Assembly: GCA_022703375.1 (NCBI GenBank)
Contig: JAKLDS010000011.1
Location: forward strand, 1-52,646
Reading direction: 5' to 3'
DNA length: 52,646 nt
DNA from: Deltaproteobacteria bacterium
Lineage (GTDB): Bacteria; Desulfobacterota; Syntrophia; Syntrophales; Smithellaceae
Made by a program: the position numbers and the translations under genes
Notes under the pieces: generated by a model
Seen by the model: only the letters and a program-made list of their open reading frames with translations
Told to the model about the DNA's origin: nothing
Database searches by the model: none
In this document: in pieces, positions 35,584 through 42,652 of the stretch
Position numbering within the stretch: the stretch's first letter is position 1
How the letters are laid out: each line of letters begins with the position of its first letter

Positions 35584-36435
35584 ATGAATAAATTATTTAA
35601 TTCGATAGTTATTGTTTTACTGGTAATTTTAATCGCCGGAATCGGCTATGCCCAGACGCCGCAGCAAAAAAATATAATTCTGGCAACAACAACCAGCACA
35701 CAGGACAGCGGACTGCTCGATGAGTTAATCCCTGTTTTTGAAAAGAAGACCGGGTATTTTGTCAAGACAATCGCTGTTGGTTCCGGACAGGCAATGAAAA
35801 TGGGGCAGAAAGGCGAAGCGGATGTTTTGCTCGTCCATTCGCCGGATGCCGAAATAAAGTTTGTTGCCGAAAACTATGGCGTCAACCGCCGCCTGGTCAT
35901 GCATAACGATTTTATCATTCTGGGCATGGCCGCGGATTCCGCCAAAATAAAAGGAACAAAATCAGCCGGAGACGCTTTTAAAAAAATTGCCGCCGCCGGC
36001 TCCTTGTTTATCTCGCGGGGAGATAAATCGGGAACACATGCCAAGGAAATGAAAATCTGGAATGGTGTCGGCATAAATCCGGAAGGCCAAAAATGGTATC
36101 AGCAGACAGGGTTAGGCATGGGCAATACCCTCGGTGTGGCGGCGGAGAAAAAAGGCTATACGCTGGCCGACCGCGGCACGTATCTGGCAATGAAAAAAAA
36201 TTTGGGGCTGGATATATTAGTGGAAGGCGATGCGGCACTGCTTAATATTTATCATATTATCGAAGTCAATCCGGCCAAATGGCCGAAAGTCAATGCCGCC
36301 GGCAGCAAGGCTTTTGCCGATTTCATGGTCGCTCCCGAAACGCAGGCTGTCATCAAGACATTCGGCGTGGATAAATTCGGTTCGCCTCTGTTTTTCCCGG
36401 ATGCTGGGAAGCGTGTGGATGATTTAGGTAAATAG
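35584..36435 (+). CDS. tupA: Tungstate ABC transporter substrate-binding protein
   Basis: A 283-aa periplasmic protein with a signal peptide ending GIGYA. It has the tungstate-specific signature TTTSTQDSGLLD near residues 37-48, then VGSGQAMKMGQKGEADVLLVHS, HNDFIILG and SRGDKSGTHAKEM. TupA proteins bind tungstate with high affinity for delivery to TupBC; tungsten is used by aldehyde:ferredoxin oxidoreductases and some formate dehydrogenases of anaerobes. It is a clear paralogue of the preceding gene. An AAGGAG site precedes ATG. Confidence 0.93.
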   Translation: MNKLFNSIVIVLLVILIAGIGYAQTPQQKNIILATTTSTQDSGLLDELIPVFEKKTGYFVKTIAVGSGQAMKMGQKGEADVLLVHSPDAEIKFVAENYGVNRRLVMHNDFIILGMAADSAKIKGTKSAGDAFKKIAAAGSLFISRGDKSGTHAKEMKIWNGVGINPEGQKWYQQTGLGMGNTLGVAAEKKGYTLADRGTYLAMKKNLGLDILVEGDAALLNIYHIIEVNPAKWPKVNAAGSKAFADFMVAPETQAVIKTFGVDKFGSPLFFPDAGKRVDDLGK

Positions 36436-36437
36436 TA

Positions 36438-37136
36438 TTGGAACTGTTTCTTGACGGCATTAAAAAAGCGCTGGAGCTGATTTTCAGCTTCGATCCCGAA
36501 GTGCTGGGAATAACTTTCCTGTCCCTGAAGATTTCCGGCACAGCGACGTTGATCAGCATGTTTATCGGCATGTCCATCGGCGTTGCCGTTGCATTGAATA
36601 ATTTCTTCGGCAAACGCCTGATCATCAGCCTCATTAATACCGGCATGGGCCTGCCGCCGGTGGTGGTCGGTCTTTTCGTGACAATTATGCTCTGGCGCAA
36701 CGGCCCCTTCGGCTTTATGGAAATTCTCTATACACCGACCGCCATGATTATCGCACAGGCCATTATCGCCACACCAATTGTCATGGGGATAACGCTTGCC
36801 GCTATTCAGCACCTGCCGGAAAATCTGCGCCTGCAAATTCTTTCACTGGGGGCAACCAGATTACAGATGGTCTGGCTGCTCATCAAAGAGGCGCGCCTGC
36901 CGCTGCTGGCCGCCGTTATGGCGGGCTTCGGCGGTGTTATTTCCGAAGTCGGCGCCTCGATTATGGTCGGCGGCAACATCAAAGGCTATTCGCGCGTGCT
37001 GACCACCGCAACCGTCATGGAAACAGGCAAAGGCAATTTTGATACGGCTATTGCGTTGGGTATAATCCTGCTTATCCTCGCCTTCACCGTCAACGCCATT
37101 TTAACTTCCATCCAGCAAAAGCAGAGGCCGCGATGA
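36438..37136 (+). CDS. tupB: Tungstate ABC transporter permease
   Basis: A 232-aa inner-membrane protein with about five hydrophobic segments and the permease-to-ATPase contact loop EAR...AAVMAGFGGVISEVGAS near residue 155-175. The region SLISLKISGTATLISMFIG-like start and NTGMGLPPVVVGL match TupB. It starts with TTG at 36438, two bases after the tupA stop, and overlaps tupC by 4 bp, so all are one operon. Confidence 0.92.
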   Translation: MELFLDGIKKALELIFSFDPEVLGITFLSLKISGTATLISMFIGMSIGVAVALNNFFGKRLIISLINTGMGLPPVVVGLFVTIMLWRNGPFGFMEILYTPTAMIIAQAIIATPIVMGITLAAIQHLPENLRLQILSLGATRLQMVWLLIKEARLPLLAAVMAGFGGVISEVGASIMVGGNIKGYSRVLTTATVMETGKGNFDTAIALGIILLILAFTVNAILTSIQQKQRPR

Positions 37137-38227
37137 GCAATAACAAGCCTTCCATTCTGGCTGTCAGGAATCTGATAGTCGAGCGCGCCGGCGCTGTGGT
37201 TCTTAATATTCATTCTCTGGAAATCAACGCCGGTGATCTGCTGTCGCTCATCGGCCCCAACGGCGCAGGTAAATCCAGCCTGTTTCTGGCTCTTTCCTTT
37301 CTGATTAAAAATACGGGGGGCGAAATATTTTTTCACGGCAACCGGATTTCGACAAAAGAAGAAATATTCAATTACCGCCGCCAGTTGGTAATGGTTTTTC
37401 AGGAGCCGCTTTTACTGAATACAACAGTCAGGGAAAATATCGCCGCCGGACTGAAGCTTCGCCACAAACCAGCCAATGAAATTGAAAAGAGTGTTGACCG
37501 TTATGCGTCAATGTTCGGCATCAGCCATCTTCTTGATCGTTCGGCGCGGGCGCTTTCCGGCGGCGAGGCGCAGCGCACCAGCCTGGCGCGGGCGCTGGCG
37601 ATTGAGCCGGAGATTGTTTTTCTCGATGAACCTTTCGCCTCATTAGACCAGCCGACAAAAGAATCATTGCTGGCTGATTTGCAACAAATTCTTTGCCGGA
37701 CCAAAACAACGGCCATCATGGCCACGCATGACCGCAATGACGCCTTGCGCTTGTCCGATTATATCGCCGTGATGAATCGGGGAAAAATAGTTCAGTTGGG
37801 CATGCCCGAAGATATCATGAATCGGCCGGCTGATGAATTTGTCGCCTCATTCGTCGGCGTAGAAACGGTTCTGCGCGGTGAAGTGAAAGAAAACAAGGAC
37901 GGCATAAATATCATAACCGTCGCCGGCGGGAATCTGGAAGCAATAGGCGACTTTGCTCCGGGCAGCCATGTCCTTTGCTGCATCCGGCCGGAGTATGTGA
38001 CGCTCGCCGCGGCGGCAGGGGCATCCACCAGCGCCCGTAATGTCTATATGGCCCGCATCGAAAAAATAATCCCGCTGGGCATGTTTTACAAAGTTGAACT
38101 GGATGCAGGCTTTCCGCTCATCTCCTATGTTACCTCCACTTCTTTGGATAACTTATCTTTGGACGCAGGTCAGAATATCAGCGCCTCTTTCAAAGCCACA
38201 GCCATCCATTTGATTCCCGCCAGATGA
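37133..38227 (+). CDS. tupC: Tungstate ABC transporter ATP-binding protein
   Basis: A 364-aa ABC ATPase. Walker A GPNGAGKSS lies near 42-50, Q-loop VFQEPLLL near 88, signature LSGGEAQR near 141, Walker B IVFLDEP near 164 and the switch histidine in ATHDRND near 195. The C-terminal ~120 residues (after FVGVETVLRGEV) form a TOBE/MOP-like regulatory domain that may bind the oxyanion and inhibit transport. It overlaps tupB by 4 bp and is the last gene of the operon. Confidence 0.93.
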   Translation: MSNNKPSILAVRNLIVERAGAVVLNIHSLEINAGDLLSLIGPNGAGKSSLFLALSFLIKNTGGEIFFHGNRISTKEEIFNYRRQLVMVFQEPLLLNTTVRENIAAGLKLRHKPANEIEKSVDRYASMFGISHLLDRSARALSGGEAQRTSLARALAIEPEIVFLDEPFASLDQPTKESLLADLQQILCRTKTTAIMATHDRNDALRLSDYIAVMNRGKIVQLGMPEDIMNRPADEFVASFVGVETVLRGEVKENKDGINIITVAGGNLEAIGDFAPGSHVLCCIRPEYVTLAAAAGASTSARNVYMARIEKIIPLGMFYKVELDAGFPLISYVTSTSLDNLSLDAGQNISASFKATAIHLIPAR

Positions 38228-38440: not shown

Positions 38441-40825
38441 ATGATTGCTATTGACATCAGAACAATTTTTATCAGCTATATCCTGTCCAGCCTCCTGTGC
38501 GTTTTCGTAATGGCCTCGTTGTGGCATCAAAACAGGAAACGCTCGCCGGAAATAACTTTATGGCTTGCCGACTACGTTTTGCAATTTTCCGCAATTCTGC
38601 TGATTACACTGCGCGGTATCATTCCCGATTTTTTTTCCATTGTTCTGGCTAACACTTTCATCGTCGGAGGCACAGTTCTCCTCTATCAGGGTCTGGAGCG
38701 CTATGTGGGTAAGGTAACCAGGCAGTGGCATAATTACCTGATGCTGGTCGTTTTTATTTTTTTACATGCGTATTTCACATTCGGATATCCCAGCCTCACT
38801 TTGCGTAACATTAATTATTCAGTTGCCTTTCTTTTTATTTGCGCTCAGTGCTCCTGGCTCATGCTGCGGCGTGTAGATGAGCCACTGCGTGAGGCGACAA
38901 TGGCAACGGGTTTTGTTTTTGCCGCTTTTTGCATCTTCAGCATTATTCAAATCATCACCAATATTACAATGAAACAGACCGGCGATATATTTATGTCCGG
39001 TGTCTTTGCCGCGCTGATAATCATTGCCTACCAAGTGTTGTTGATTGCCCTGACGTTTGTTTTGTTTCTGCTCGTCGGCCGCCGGCTGGCGATGGCTCTG
39101 GAACAAGAACTTACCGACCGCCGGCAGACGGAAAAAACATTACTGGCCAGTGAAGAGCGGGTGCGGCTCTTGCTTGACTCCACCGCTGAGGCAATTTATG
39201 GCATTGATCTGCAAGGCAATTGCACCTTTGCCAATCCTTCCTGCCTGAAAATGCTGGGCTATACGGATATACAGCAACTGCTCGGCAAAAATATGCATTG
39301 GCTGATTCATCATTCCTATCCGGGGGGAACTCCGATGGCTGTTGAAGATTGCCGGATATACCGGGCGTTTCGCAAAGGCCGGGGCGAGCATGTTGAAGAT
39401 GAAGTTTTATGGAAAGCCGACGGCACAAGTTTTCCCGCCGAATACTGGTCCTATCCCCAGATATCCCACGGTGAAATAGCGGGTGCGGTGGTAACTTTCA
39501 TTGACATTACCGAACGCAAGCGAACGGAAGCAGAAATCAGGCGGCACGAAGAAAGTCTTCGCGAAGCACAGAGCATCGCGCGATTGGGAAACTGGGAATT
39601 GGATTTAAGAACGAAAATACTTTACTGGTCGAAAGGCATCTACGAAATATTCGAAATCAACCCCCGGGAATTCGGCGCTTCCTACGAGGCTTTTCTGGAG
39701 GCGATACATCCCGATGACCGAGCATCTGTCAATCAGGCATATACCGAGTCGCTTGAAAAAAGAACACCTTATGAAATATCACACCGTTTGCTGATGAAAG
39801 ACGGGCGAATCAAGTGGGTAAATGAAATCTGCCGCACCGAGTATGACAGGCAGGGCAATCCGGTAAAGTCCATGGGCATTGTTCAGGATATCTCTCAGCG
39901 CAAGCAGTCAGAAGAAGCGCTGGCGGAAGAGAGACAGCGGCTCTCTTACATTCTGGAAGGCACCAACGTCGGCACGTGGGAGTGGAATATTGAGACCGGG
40001 GAAACCATCTTCAACGAACGCTGGGCGGAAATTATCGGCTATACTATCGCCGAGCTCGCCCCTGTTTCTATTGATACCTGGTTGAAATACGCGCATCCGG
40101 ATGATCTGAAAAAATCCGGTGAACTGCTGGATAAACATTTCCGGAAAGAATTGGCTTATTACGAACACGAAGCGCGCATGCTTCACAAAAACGGCAGTTG
40201 GGTCTGGGTGCTCGATAGAGGAAAAGTTGTGAAATGGACGGCTGACGGAAAACCGCTGCTGATGTCGGGAACCCATCAGGATATAAACCAGCGCAAACTT
40301 TCCGAGGAAAAAATTCAGCACATGGCAACTCACGATATGTTGACTGACCTGCCCGGCCTGCGCCTCGCTAAAGACAGAATGACGATGGCAATCGGCATGG
40401 CGCGGCGGCAAATCAATCTGATGGCCGTGATGTTCCTCGACCTCGATGGGTTCAAACTGGTTAATGATACCCTTGGTCATGACGCCGGTGACAGCGTGCT
40501 CCGGCAAGTGGCTCAGCAACTGCTTTTATGCGTGCGGGAAACCGACACTGTTTCCCGCGTCGGTGGAGATGAATTTCTGATTATCGCCACCAATCTGCGC
40601 TCGGTTGATAATGCCGGCGAAATTGCGGGAAAGATAATCAGCCTTTTATCCCGGCCATTCAGCGTCAAAGATAAGCAGGTGACCATAGGTGCTAGTATCG
40701 GCATCGCTCTTTATCCGGACAACGGCACTGATGTCGAAATGCTCATCAAACAGGCTGATGAAGCCATGTATCGCATCAAATACGGGGGCAAGAATGGCTT
40801 TGGCTTCGCCGATACAAATAAATAA
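38441..40825 (+). CDS. Membrane sensor diguanylate cyclase (7TM-like region, three PAS domains, GGDEF)
   Basis: A 794-aa protein. Residues 1-220 hold about seven hydrophobic segments forming a membrane sensor. A short coiled coil leads to PAS domains at about 240-355, 375-490 and 500-620, the second and third of the PAS_3 type (WELDLRTKILYWS, WEWNIETGETIFN). The GGDEF domain spans about 635-790 with RVGGDEF near 707 and an inhibitory RxxD site (RETD) five residues before GGDEF, so it should make cyclic di-GMP with product inhibition. No EAL domain follows. It is transcribed away from the tungstate operon terminator and ends 28 bp from the convergent NCS2 permease gene. Confidence 0.93.
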   Translation: MIAIDIRTIFISYILSSLLCVFVMASLWHQNRKRSPEITLWLADYVLQFSAILLITLRGIIPDFFSIVLANTFIVGGTVLLYQGLERYVGKVTRQWHNYLMLVVFIFLHAYFTFGYPSLTLRNINYSVAFLFICAQCSWLMLRRVDEPLREATMATGFVFAAFCIFSIIQIITNITMKQTGDIFMSGVFAALIIIAYQVLLIALTFVLFLLVGRRLAMALEQELTDRRQTEKTLLASEERVRLLLDSTAEAIYGIDLQGNCTFANPSCLKMLGYTDIQQLLGKNMHWLIHHSYPGGTPMAVEDCRIYRAFRKGRGEHVEDEVLWKADGTSFPAEYWSYPQISHGEIAGAVVTFIDITERKRTEAEIRRHEESLREAQSIARLGNWELDLRTKILYWSKGIYEIFEINPREFGASYEAFLEAIHPDDRASVNQAYTESLEKRTPYEISHRLLMKDGRIKWVNEICRTEYDRQGNPVKSMGIVQDISQRKQSEEALAEERQRLSYILEGTNVGTWEWNIETGETIFNERWAEIIGYTIAELAPVSIDTWLKYAHPDDLKKSGELLDKHFRKELAYYEHEARMLHKNGSWVWVLDRGKVVKWTADGKPLLMSGTHQDINQRKLSEEKIQHMATHDMLTDLPGLRLAKDRMTMAIGMARRQINLMAVMFLDLDGFKLVNDTLGHDAGDSVLRQVAQQLLLCVRETDTVSRVGGDEFLIIATNLRSVDNAGEIAGKIISLLSRPFSVKDKQVTIGASIGIALYPDNGTDVEMLIKQADEAMYRIKYGGKNGFGFADTNK

Positions 40826-40853: not shown

Positions 40854-42569
40854 TCAGTGATTGAAATGCAAATTGATATGACACAGCCCTTTCTTTACCG
40901 ATGATTCCACCCTGTCCGCATTGCGGCGGATAAGAAACAACGAAAGCCCGGCAGTGCCCAGCGGCGAAGAGAGGATTTCCTCCTCCGAAGGCTTTGTATC
41001 GGTAAACAGCATCGGCTCCCCCCGGTAGGATATATCAACATCAAGGTTGAATTCATCAAACGAAACGGCAACATTCAACGCGCCTGATGTTGCTGCCATT
41101 GACTCCGCCGATTCCAGCGTTTCGTTAATCGCGGAAGCGGCACGTGCTATCACATTCGGCATGGCGCCCCATAAAGCGCCCTGGCGCTGGAGAAAAGTAA
41201 ACACCTTTTCGGAATGGTCAACACCGGGAACCAGTTCGATAGTCGCCGTTTGGGCAATGCCAATTCTCATAAAAATATTCAGAATAATGGCGCAAATGGT
41301 TGCCAGGGAAAGGGATGATTGGAAGAAAGGCTGTATCATGTCGGGTATATTTCGATACAGACCCGGAATAACGTCTACACTGAGACCGAAGACGATGGAG
41401 ATGCCGATGACAAATGTTTTACGGACATCAATCATGCGGGAAAGCATTATCTGTATTCCCGCCACCACCATGAAACTCGCGGCGAAAACAAGGCTGGCGC
41501 CCATGACCGGCGTCGGCATAATGACAAATATTGACGCAATTTTCGGCAGGAAGGCAAACAAAATCAGCAAGCCTCCAATTGCGTAAGCGATTGCCCTGCT
41601 TGTCGCGCCGGTTGCTATGGAAAGGCCGATATTGCTGGATGATGGGGATTGCCCGAACGCACCGGTAAGCCCGGAAAGTATGTTGCCGGATGCACAGGCC
41701 AGAATGCCTCGGCTTACGGATTTCATATCAAGACGTTTCCACCCGGCATCATTTATTTTCTGACAGGTTGTGAGATCGCCCATCGTTTTCAATGCGGAAG
41801 AAAGCGCAGCCACTATAAACGGGATAATCAGGGCAGTGCTGAAACTCATGCCATAGAAGCCTATTGCGGGTACGGAAAACCAGGCAGACCCTCTGATATG
41901 GTCAAACTGATTCTGACCAAAAATACCCGTAAGATAGGCTGTTGCATAACCGATAATCATGCCTATTAAAACTGAATAGAGGCGGATTTTGCCTTTTCCC
42001 CAGACGGTCAGGCCGATCATGGAAGCAAGCGTAATTACGGCAACCATTACGGATGTCGGGTCCAGCATTTGATGAGCCGCATCCAGGCCGAAGAATTTTT
42101 TTACTCCCAGCGGGATAACCTCGATTCCCACCATGGTTACGATAGTACCGATAACCTCCGCCGGGAAGAACGCCCTCAGTTTTATTGCCACGCGGGAAAA
42201 AACGCCCTCGAACAGTCCGCCGATAAAAGTCATGCCGAAAACAAGAGGCAACCCGCCGGTTTTTCCGGCCAGGATGGAAGCGGATAAAAAGGCAGGCCCG
42301 TTTATCAGAGGGCAAAGGTAACCCGAGCCCACCGGCCCTTTGTTCAACCCCTGGAGGATGGTAGCCAAACCTGTAACCAGCATCGCCATTGTGATGATGC
42401 GCCGGGAATCATCGTATGTCCCGCCAATAGCATCAACGATAATGACGGGAATGACAAAGGCAATCGTCATTACAAATATGTGCTGCAAACCCAGCATCAC
42501 AAGAGAGCCAATACCGGGGCTTTCATCAACATCATATATCAGGTTTGCCGGTTTTTTCCGCTCAGCCAT
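40854..42569 (-). CDS. NCS2 (uracil/xanthine) permease with C-terminal HATPase-like domain
   Basis: A 571-aa protein. Residues 1-440 are an NCS2 nucleobase permease with about 14 hydrophobic segments (GLQHIFVMTIAFVIPVIIV, GPAFLSASILAG, TCQKINDAGWKR, SGLTGAFGQSPSSSNIGLS). From about 455 to the end it is soluble and resembles the serine-kinase/anti-sigma HATPase fold: an N-box-like helix VIARAASAINETLESAE, SYRGEPMLF, then GTAGLSLFLIRRNADRVE and a final strand. The catalytic Asn of the N-box is not evident, so it may bind rather than hydrolyse nucleotide. The fusion suggests transport sensing or coupling to a partner-switch pathway, which is inference. ATG start. Confidence 0.85.
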   Translation of the reverse strand: MAERKKPANLIYDVDESPGIGSLVMLGLQHIFVMTIAFVIPVIIVDAIGGTYDDSRRIITMAMLVTGLATILQGLNKGPVGSGYLCPLINGPAFLSASILAGKTGGLPLVFGMTFIGGLFEGVFSRVAIKLRAFFPAEVIGTIVTMVGIEVIPLGVKKFFGLDAAHQMLDPTSVMVAVITLASMIGLTVWGKGKIRLYSVLIGMIIGYATAYLTGIFGQNQFDHIRGSAWFSVPAIGFYGMSFSTALIIPFIVAALSSALKTMGDLTTCQKINDAGWKRLDMKSVSRGILACASGNILSGLTGAFGQSPSSSNIGLSIATGATSRAIAYAIGGLLILFAFLPKIASIFVIMPTPVMGASLVFAASFMVVAGIQIMLSRMIDVRKTFVIGISIVFGLSVDVIPGLYRNIPDMIQPFFQSSLSLATICAIILNIFMRIGIAQTATIELVPGVDHSEKVFTFLQRQGALWGAMPNVIARAASAINETLESAESMAATSGALNVAVSFDEFNLDVDISYRGEPMLFTDTKPSEEEILSSPLGTAGLSLFLIRRNADRVESSVKKGLCHINLHFNH

Positions 42570-42652
42570 GATTCAATCTTTTTTTATGTGATAAAATTCG
42601 ATTTTTGCCAATGAACTATAAGAAAATAAATTTGTTGTGTCAATTCAATAAT

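Follow-up and report, generated by a model that had tools for sequence, protein, structure and literature searches.

Within the window, by which we mean the entire 52,646-nucleotide stretch of DNA analysed, a minus-strand frame encodes a 571-residue protein, with an ATG at 42569 and a stop codon at 40854–40856. A preliminary description had delimited this frame correctly without stating its strand, and the motifs which it singled out (INETLESAE, SYRGEP and GTAGLSLFLIRRNADRVE) are all found in the protein. Its central proposal, that a transporter is fused to a HATPase-like tail, is borne out by full-length conservation in relatives and by the profile and predicted structure of the tail. The features of the gene are collected in Table 1. 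The promoter-like site, a good sigma-70-like match, is consistent with transcription of the transporter as a single gene, judged by its letters alone, and no gene for a STAS protein, RsbW-type kinase or phosphatase lies in the window. A plus-strand gene for what reads as a PAS-repeat/GGDEF-like protein (38441–40825) converges on the transporter gene, and three further plus-strand genes (35584–38227) resemble those of an ABC transporter (binding protein, permease and ATPase), which from its motifs we presume to be of the tungstate type.

Table 1. Positions in the window of the transporter gene, its domains and its diagnostic residues.
Feature	Position	Strand	Basis
NCS2-family transporter with C-terminal RsbW-like domain, 571 aa	40854..42569	-	Open reading frame and full-length homologues
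Promoter-like site TTGACA-17-TATAGT, upstream of start	42615..42643	-	11/12 matches; consensus match only
NCS2 membrane domain, residues 20-435	41265..42512	-	PF00860 match and helices of full-length model
Lys261, aligned to UraA Glu241	41787..41789	-	Lys 83, Arg 10, Asp 4 of 97 fused
Ser312, aligned to UraA Glu290	41634..41636	-	Ser in 65/97 fused
Degenerate HATPase (RsbW/SpoIIAB-like) domain, residues ~439-571	40857..41255	-	Predicted fold and profile comparison
Ser487 in place of N-box Asn	41109..41111	-	Asn 0/102 fused vs 26/26 stand-alone
Family signature FDEFNLD, residues 504-510	41040..41060	-	Conserved in tails; search pattern for relatives
Tyr515 in place of G1-box Asp	41025..41027	-	Tyr 101/102 fused; Asp 0/102 fused vs 26/26 stand-alone
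Invariant C-terminal His571	40857..40859	-	His in 100/102 fused

The membrane part of the protein matches the Xan_ur_permease family (PF00860) over residues 22–401 with 186.1 bits, exceeding the curated cut-off of 27 bits, and a model of the full-length protein, with a mean pLDDT of 72.8, has predicted membrane helices up to about residue 435. The five full-length models disagree (48.9–72.8), and we therefore draw no inference about contacts between the tail and the membrane part. The NCBIfam model for PbuX xanthine permease (TIGR03173) gives 263.8 bits, below its curated cut-off of 414.15 bits. In UraA, Glu241 and Glu290 hydrogen-bond uracil (PMC5539350). When the protein is aligned with the UraA sequence from the PDB, Lys261 pairs with the glutamate of AEHVGH and Ser312 with that of YGEN, which we took as Glu241 and Glu290 by assigning the numbering through the motif match; carboxylates are absent from both sites in the window protein. 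Fused proteins without serine at the Glu290 position mostly have other small residues there. Glutamate is the commonest residue at both sites in control NCS2 proteins (22 of 40 at each), and because the other 18 of 40 vary too, the site bears on substrate and not on family membership. The preliminary description had called the transporter a nucleobase permease, for which we find no support: both uracil-binding carboxylates are replaced across the fused family, so nucleobase transport is unproven and the substrate undetermined. That the cargo is an anion is a guess.

The predicted structure of the 138-residue tail (pLDDT 90.8) has its helices and strands arranged in the same order as in RsbW. 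In a Foldseek search with this model the top ranks went to Bacillus subtilis RsbW, mycobacterial UsfX and SpoIIAB (E 1.1e-5 to 1e-4), RsbW itself at E 1.1e-5 with a target-based TM-score of 0.74 to 6m37. VIA-align aligned 115 residues with the anti-sigmaF factor 8ih8_C (Z 13.7, rmsd 2.2) and placed DesK-type histidine kinases lower (Z 8.9 and below). Profile A1, built from 15 tails, was aligned by hhalign over all 138 columns with ten stand-alone RsbW-type neighbours (probability 96, E 2.2e-9), and the tail profile also picked up stand-alone RsbW-like proteins in a small local search (E 5.1e-4 to 6.2e-7). The same hhalign comparison against STAS neighbours gave no match (probability 0.1), which rules out a STAS domain as the identity of the tail; it likewise gave none against the phosphatase neighbours. 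With a single sequence, the HATPase_c_2 family (PF13581) stays sub-threshold (E 0.068–0.082, 13.4–13.6 bits against a cut-off of 27.4), so that the domain inference of the preliminary description needed profiles and structure to support it; 6 of 15 relatives match this family at E up to 10, the best at 5.9e-4. Neither RsbW nor SpoIIAB appeared in the rows returned by PDB sequence searches with the single tail (best E 1.5) or with profile A1 (0.015), and the link to RsbW therefore rests on the fold and on profile–profile comparison. On that footing, a predicted Bergerat fold like that of the RsbW/SpoIIAB anti-sigma kinases is supported, in agreement with the earlier reading of the tail as an RsbW-type HATPase and with the STAS alternative checked and excluded.

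In kinases of this kind the N-box and the G1 and G2 boxes have roles in ATP binding. The missing N-box asparagine, remarked on in the preliminary description for this one protein, is missing throughout the family when 102 fused tails (a redundant set in which some loci occur twice) are compared with 26 RsbW-type neighbours, and the G2 glycines have likewise gone from the fused tails; the N-box glutamate is kept as Glu in 75 and Gln in 27. With the N-box asparagine, the G1 aspartate and the G2 glycines lost, ATP binding of the usual kind by the fused tail is very unlikely. Other positions are invariant or nearly so, namely a Trp (102/102), the Phe-Asp-Glu of the signature (102, 101 and 101), a Tyr (101), a Gly (102) and the final His (100). 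Some other surface of the tail is under strong selection, as in a dead kinase and not a decaying one. Between a kinase-like domain and a module for binding only, the two options raised at the outset, the loss of catalytic residues favours the latter, the binding itself being inferred.

Among 99 genomes, the window's own included, that were searched with the full 571-residue protein, 41 gave some match. Besides the window gene, twelve places matched over essentially the whole length at 44–74% identity and two more at 32–33%. The fusion is kept full-length in relatives down to about 31% identity, and this conservation rules out a chance open frame or a frameshift as its source. Searches with profile A1 found such tails in 27 of the class's 155 genomes and, in a draw of 395 genomes from the phylum, in 17. 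A pattern scan of species genomes returned 252 matches, 161 of which encode relatives; the best 80 were used, so that the 79 loci kept (the named loci below) are not a random draw. These loci place the fusion in Deltaproteobacteria, Bacillota (Sporomusa, Pelotomaculum), Pseudomonadota (Variovorax, Bradyrhizobium), Cloacimonadota, Armatimonadota, Nitrospirae and Methanothrix, among others, and the nearest of them are Deltaproteobacteria bacterium metagenome records with tail identities of 65–69%. One metagenome record is titled Bordetella parapertussis (L118), a name made doubtful by several neighbour genes that it has in common with the Betaproteobacteria record L120. The tail is preceded in frame by at least 77 residues, mostly 430–500, in all 79 loci (the membrane parts were not each scanned with Pfam), and no stand-alone copy of the A1 tail was found in the class, phylum or 79-locus sets, except in frames that are broken or cut by a contig end. 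In a FastTree phylogeny of 39 of the 77 fused rows and 36 others, in which branches are long, the fused label requires three changes, two of them forced by well-supported branches. A single origin of the fused clade with one loss seems likely on this tree and is not demonstrated; the putative loss is L193:5923–7266 (+), a member of the fused clade that ends at 447 residues without a tail, either through loss of the tail or because the gene is split beyond the contig end.

We searched the flanking regions with our own STAS, RsbW and phosphatase HMMs, built from neighbours of the named loci and applied at E at most 1e-4. At least one kind of partner gene lies beside the transporter in 43 of the 79 named loci and two or more kinds in 36, in this set of the best 80 of 161 relatives (STAS in 40 loci, RsbW-type kinase in 23, phosphatase in 35). 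In 36 of the 79 no partner gene was found within the available flank, and some of these contigs end early. Twenty further fused loci, six with partner genes (STAS in six, kinase in two), partly overlap the named set (for instance L243 with L103, L244 with L109) and so do not form an independent sample. Of 60 control NCS2 loci only one (L223) had a partner match, to a 639-residue protein resembling a histidine kinase, and relaxing the HMMs to E below 1 brought up no STAS or phosphatase gene near any of the 60. These controls were hand-picked and mostly high-scoring, with L226–L230 included for their long frames and L231 as a member of the same family. Three of them, L226 (1996–3789, +), L227 (5142–6956, -) and L228 (5830–7656, +), form a divergent NCS2 group with another HATPase-like tail (HATPase_c_2 at E 9.1e-5 for L226, no Pfam match for L228), seemingly without the N-box asparagine; they escape detection by profile A1 and have no partner genes nearby.

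Of 107 partner genes, 91 share the strand of the transporter, and in 31 of the 43 partner-bearing loci a partner gene lies within 400 bp. Clustering of 677 neighbouring frames from the 79 loci gave a STAS cluster with members from 19 loci and another, of phosphatases and kinases mixed, with members from 40. Pfam assigned SpoIIE to 21, HATPase_c_2 to 13 and STAS to 12 of 93 neighbours of fused genes; all three are absent from the 25 commonest families among 94 control neighbours, and the 25 commonest near fused genes include no sigma-factor family. Complete sets of STAS, RsbW-type kinase, phosphatase and transporter genes occur in relatives such as L097, L126, L130 and L158. Phosphatase, kinase, STAS and transporter genes are consecutive in L130, L149, L154 and L155; in L126 the same order is followed by a second transporter, and the open frames overlap. 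Proteins with 5TM-5TMR_LYT plus SpoIIE, STAS and HATPase_c_2 domains are encoded side by side in L097, and in L109 and L132 the phosphatase has the form dCache-HAMP-SpoIIE (Pfam). The motif [FY]x[ST]SxG is present in 41 of 52 STAS neighbours, and we take its serine to be the expected phosphorylated residue. Two fused transporters stand in tandem in L126, L104, L136 and L138, which suggests either a pair acting together or divergent substrates. The 506-residue frame of L079 (genome G497) has an N-terminal RsbW-like domain, the remainder giving the impression, by its letters, of an acetyltransferase.

The window's own genome also contains partner-switch genes. Its single HATPase_c_2 gene over the cut-off lies on contig C117 and is directly followed by a STAS gene and then by a 5TM-5TMR_LYT gene that runs off the contig; another contig, C39, begins inside a SpoIIE domain. 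For C117 and C39, the neighbour HMMs recover the genes for STAS, RsbW and SpoIIE at E at most 2e-30, and weaker Pfam matches, to STAS on C1 (E 5e-4) and SpoIIE on C57 (2e-4), miss the 1e-4 HMM limit. The STAS partners that the preliminary description had recommended looking for thus exist in this genome, and in relatives they lie beside the transporter gene. Neither the window locus nor its closest relatives (L080–L084) have a partner gene next to the transporter, so the link here is one of co-presence in a single genome, and that the C117/C39 set serves the transporter is an inference. None of the class's 155 genomes, the window's included, has a SigB/F/G sigma factor that exceeds the curated cut-off; in the same search one of 14 control genomes does. 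HATPase_c_2 genes counted as strong (best E no higher than 1e-20, tallied by eye) are present in 25 of 27 class genomes with the fusion versus 43 of 128 without; these co-occurrence counts and their Fisher tests ignore relatedness, and the 43 fusion-free genomes imply that such genes serve other targets too. Also in the window's genome, two 160-residue proteins that look alike by eye (L168:2030–2512 and 2509–2991, -) are encoded directly upstream of the RsbW-type kinase; no Pfam family was found for them, and our guess of RsbRD_N has no support from Pfam.

From what is observed, namely the predicted fold, the loss of catalytic residues alongside conservation, the neighbourhoods in relatives and one gene set in the window's own genome, we propose a partner-switching circuit that has the activity of the transporter as its output and in which a STAS protein docks on the dead tail, a reading that we consider probable, if only just. 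The small STAS protein would be dephosphorylated by a SpoIIE-type phosphatase, which brings its own sensor in the form of 5TMR-LYT, dCache-HAMP or a response-regulator receiver, and would be rephosphorylated by an active RsbW-type kinase. In its unphosphorylated form the STAS protein may then dock on the RsbW-like C-terminal domain, for which there are no binding data, and so alter the transport rate in a direction that is undetermined. The dead domain would fill the slot that the anti-sigma/sigma pair occupies in classical systems. Contact of the STAS protein with the tail, gating and its sign, and the substrate are all inferred.

The fused protein might instead be the input of the circuit, a transporter-like receptor whose occupancy sets the hold of the tail on the STAS protein and frees it for another target. 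Replacement of the canonical substrate and proton-coupling residues across the family is what a non-transporting receptor would show, and a tail that is conserved yet dead would suit it as well, so the unusual transport residues keep this possibility alive; we nevertheless regard it as unlikely, as the operon phosphatases bring sensor domains of their own, leaving a second input unneeded, and no gene for another output turns up repeatedly nearby. RsbW and SpoIIAB are dimers, and the tail, sharing its fold with the neighbouring kinase, might pair with the active RsbW-type enzyme and tether it at the membrane without STAS as a direct partner. Kinase genes are indeed present in 23 of the 79 named loci, but STAS genes are found in more loci than kinase genes in both samples (40 versus 23 of 79, and 6 versus 2 of 20), and we judge this arrangement decidedly improbable. 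The tail could also bind some small ligand other than ATP and act allosterically, or serve as a structural element like the C-terminal STAS domain of SLC26 transporters, whose deletion impairs transport (PMC6497670), with the partner-switch genes acting elsewhere. In favour of this, the tail is the same in loci that lack partner genes; it would however leave to coincidence both the enrichment of such genes nearby and the descent of the tail from a STAS-binding family, and we find the idea improbable. Docking of the STAS protein on the tail, with transport as the output, remains our preferred explanation. We extend it only tentatively, and with rather less than even confidence, to a widespread class of partner-switching-gated transporters in Bacteria and Methanothrix, in which a pseudo-anti-sigma domain receives the STAS protein and a substrate site of inverted charge handles a cargo or signal other than a neutral nucleobase, perhaps an anion.

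Sigma factors are the targets for which partner switching is chiefly known; the gene neighbourhood conserved across several phyla suggests that here a membrane transporter is controlled directly, by way of the dead kinase domain fused to it. The model predicts that STAS binds the tail and, if true, genomes that have no SigB/F/G-type sigma factor would gain a target for their orphan STAS/RsbW/SpoIIE sets. Among open-access full texts we found none that describes an NCS2 protein carrying an RsbW/HATPase domain, most subscription journals and preprints being outside the scope of the search; the words 'permease' and 'nucleobase' are absent from a STAS review (PMC8256260). SiaABCD of Pseudomonas aeruginosa is a partner switch with a non-sigma output, SiaC activating the diguanylate cyclase SiaD (PMC8457831). 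The proposed circuit would share this non-sigma character, whereas its output would be a transporter. To our knowledge, docking on SiaD uses no RsbW-like domain. The tail has the fold of the anti-sigma kinases RsbW, SpoIIAB and UsfX and differs from them in lacking the N-box asparagine, G1 aspartate and G2 glycines and in being fused to a transporter. As in UraA, UapA and PbuX-type members of NCS2/SLC23, the fused protein has a full PF00860 domain, with a detectable sequence match to UraA and UapA, but unlike them it carries an RsbW-like tail and has Lys/Arg and mostly Ser at the positions of UraA Glu241 and Glu290. SLC26/SulP transporters combine a related 7+7 membrane fold with a C-terminal domain from the partner-switch toolkit (PMC6497670); theirs is a STAS domain, whereas the tail of the fused NCS2 protein is the opposite half, with the anti-sigma-kinase fold. 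If our model is true, these proteins would be the mirror image of SLC26 transporters, which carry the STAS domain themselves.
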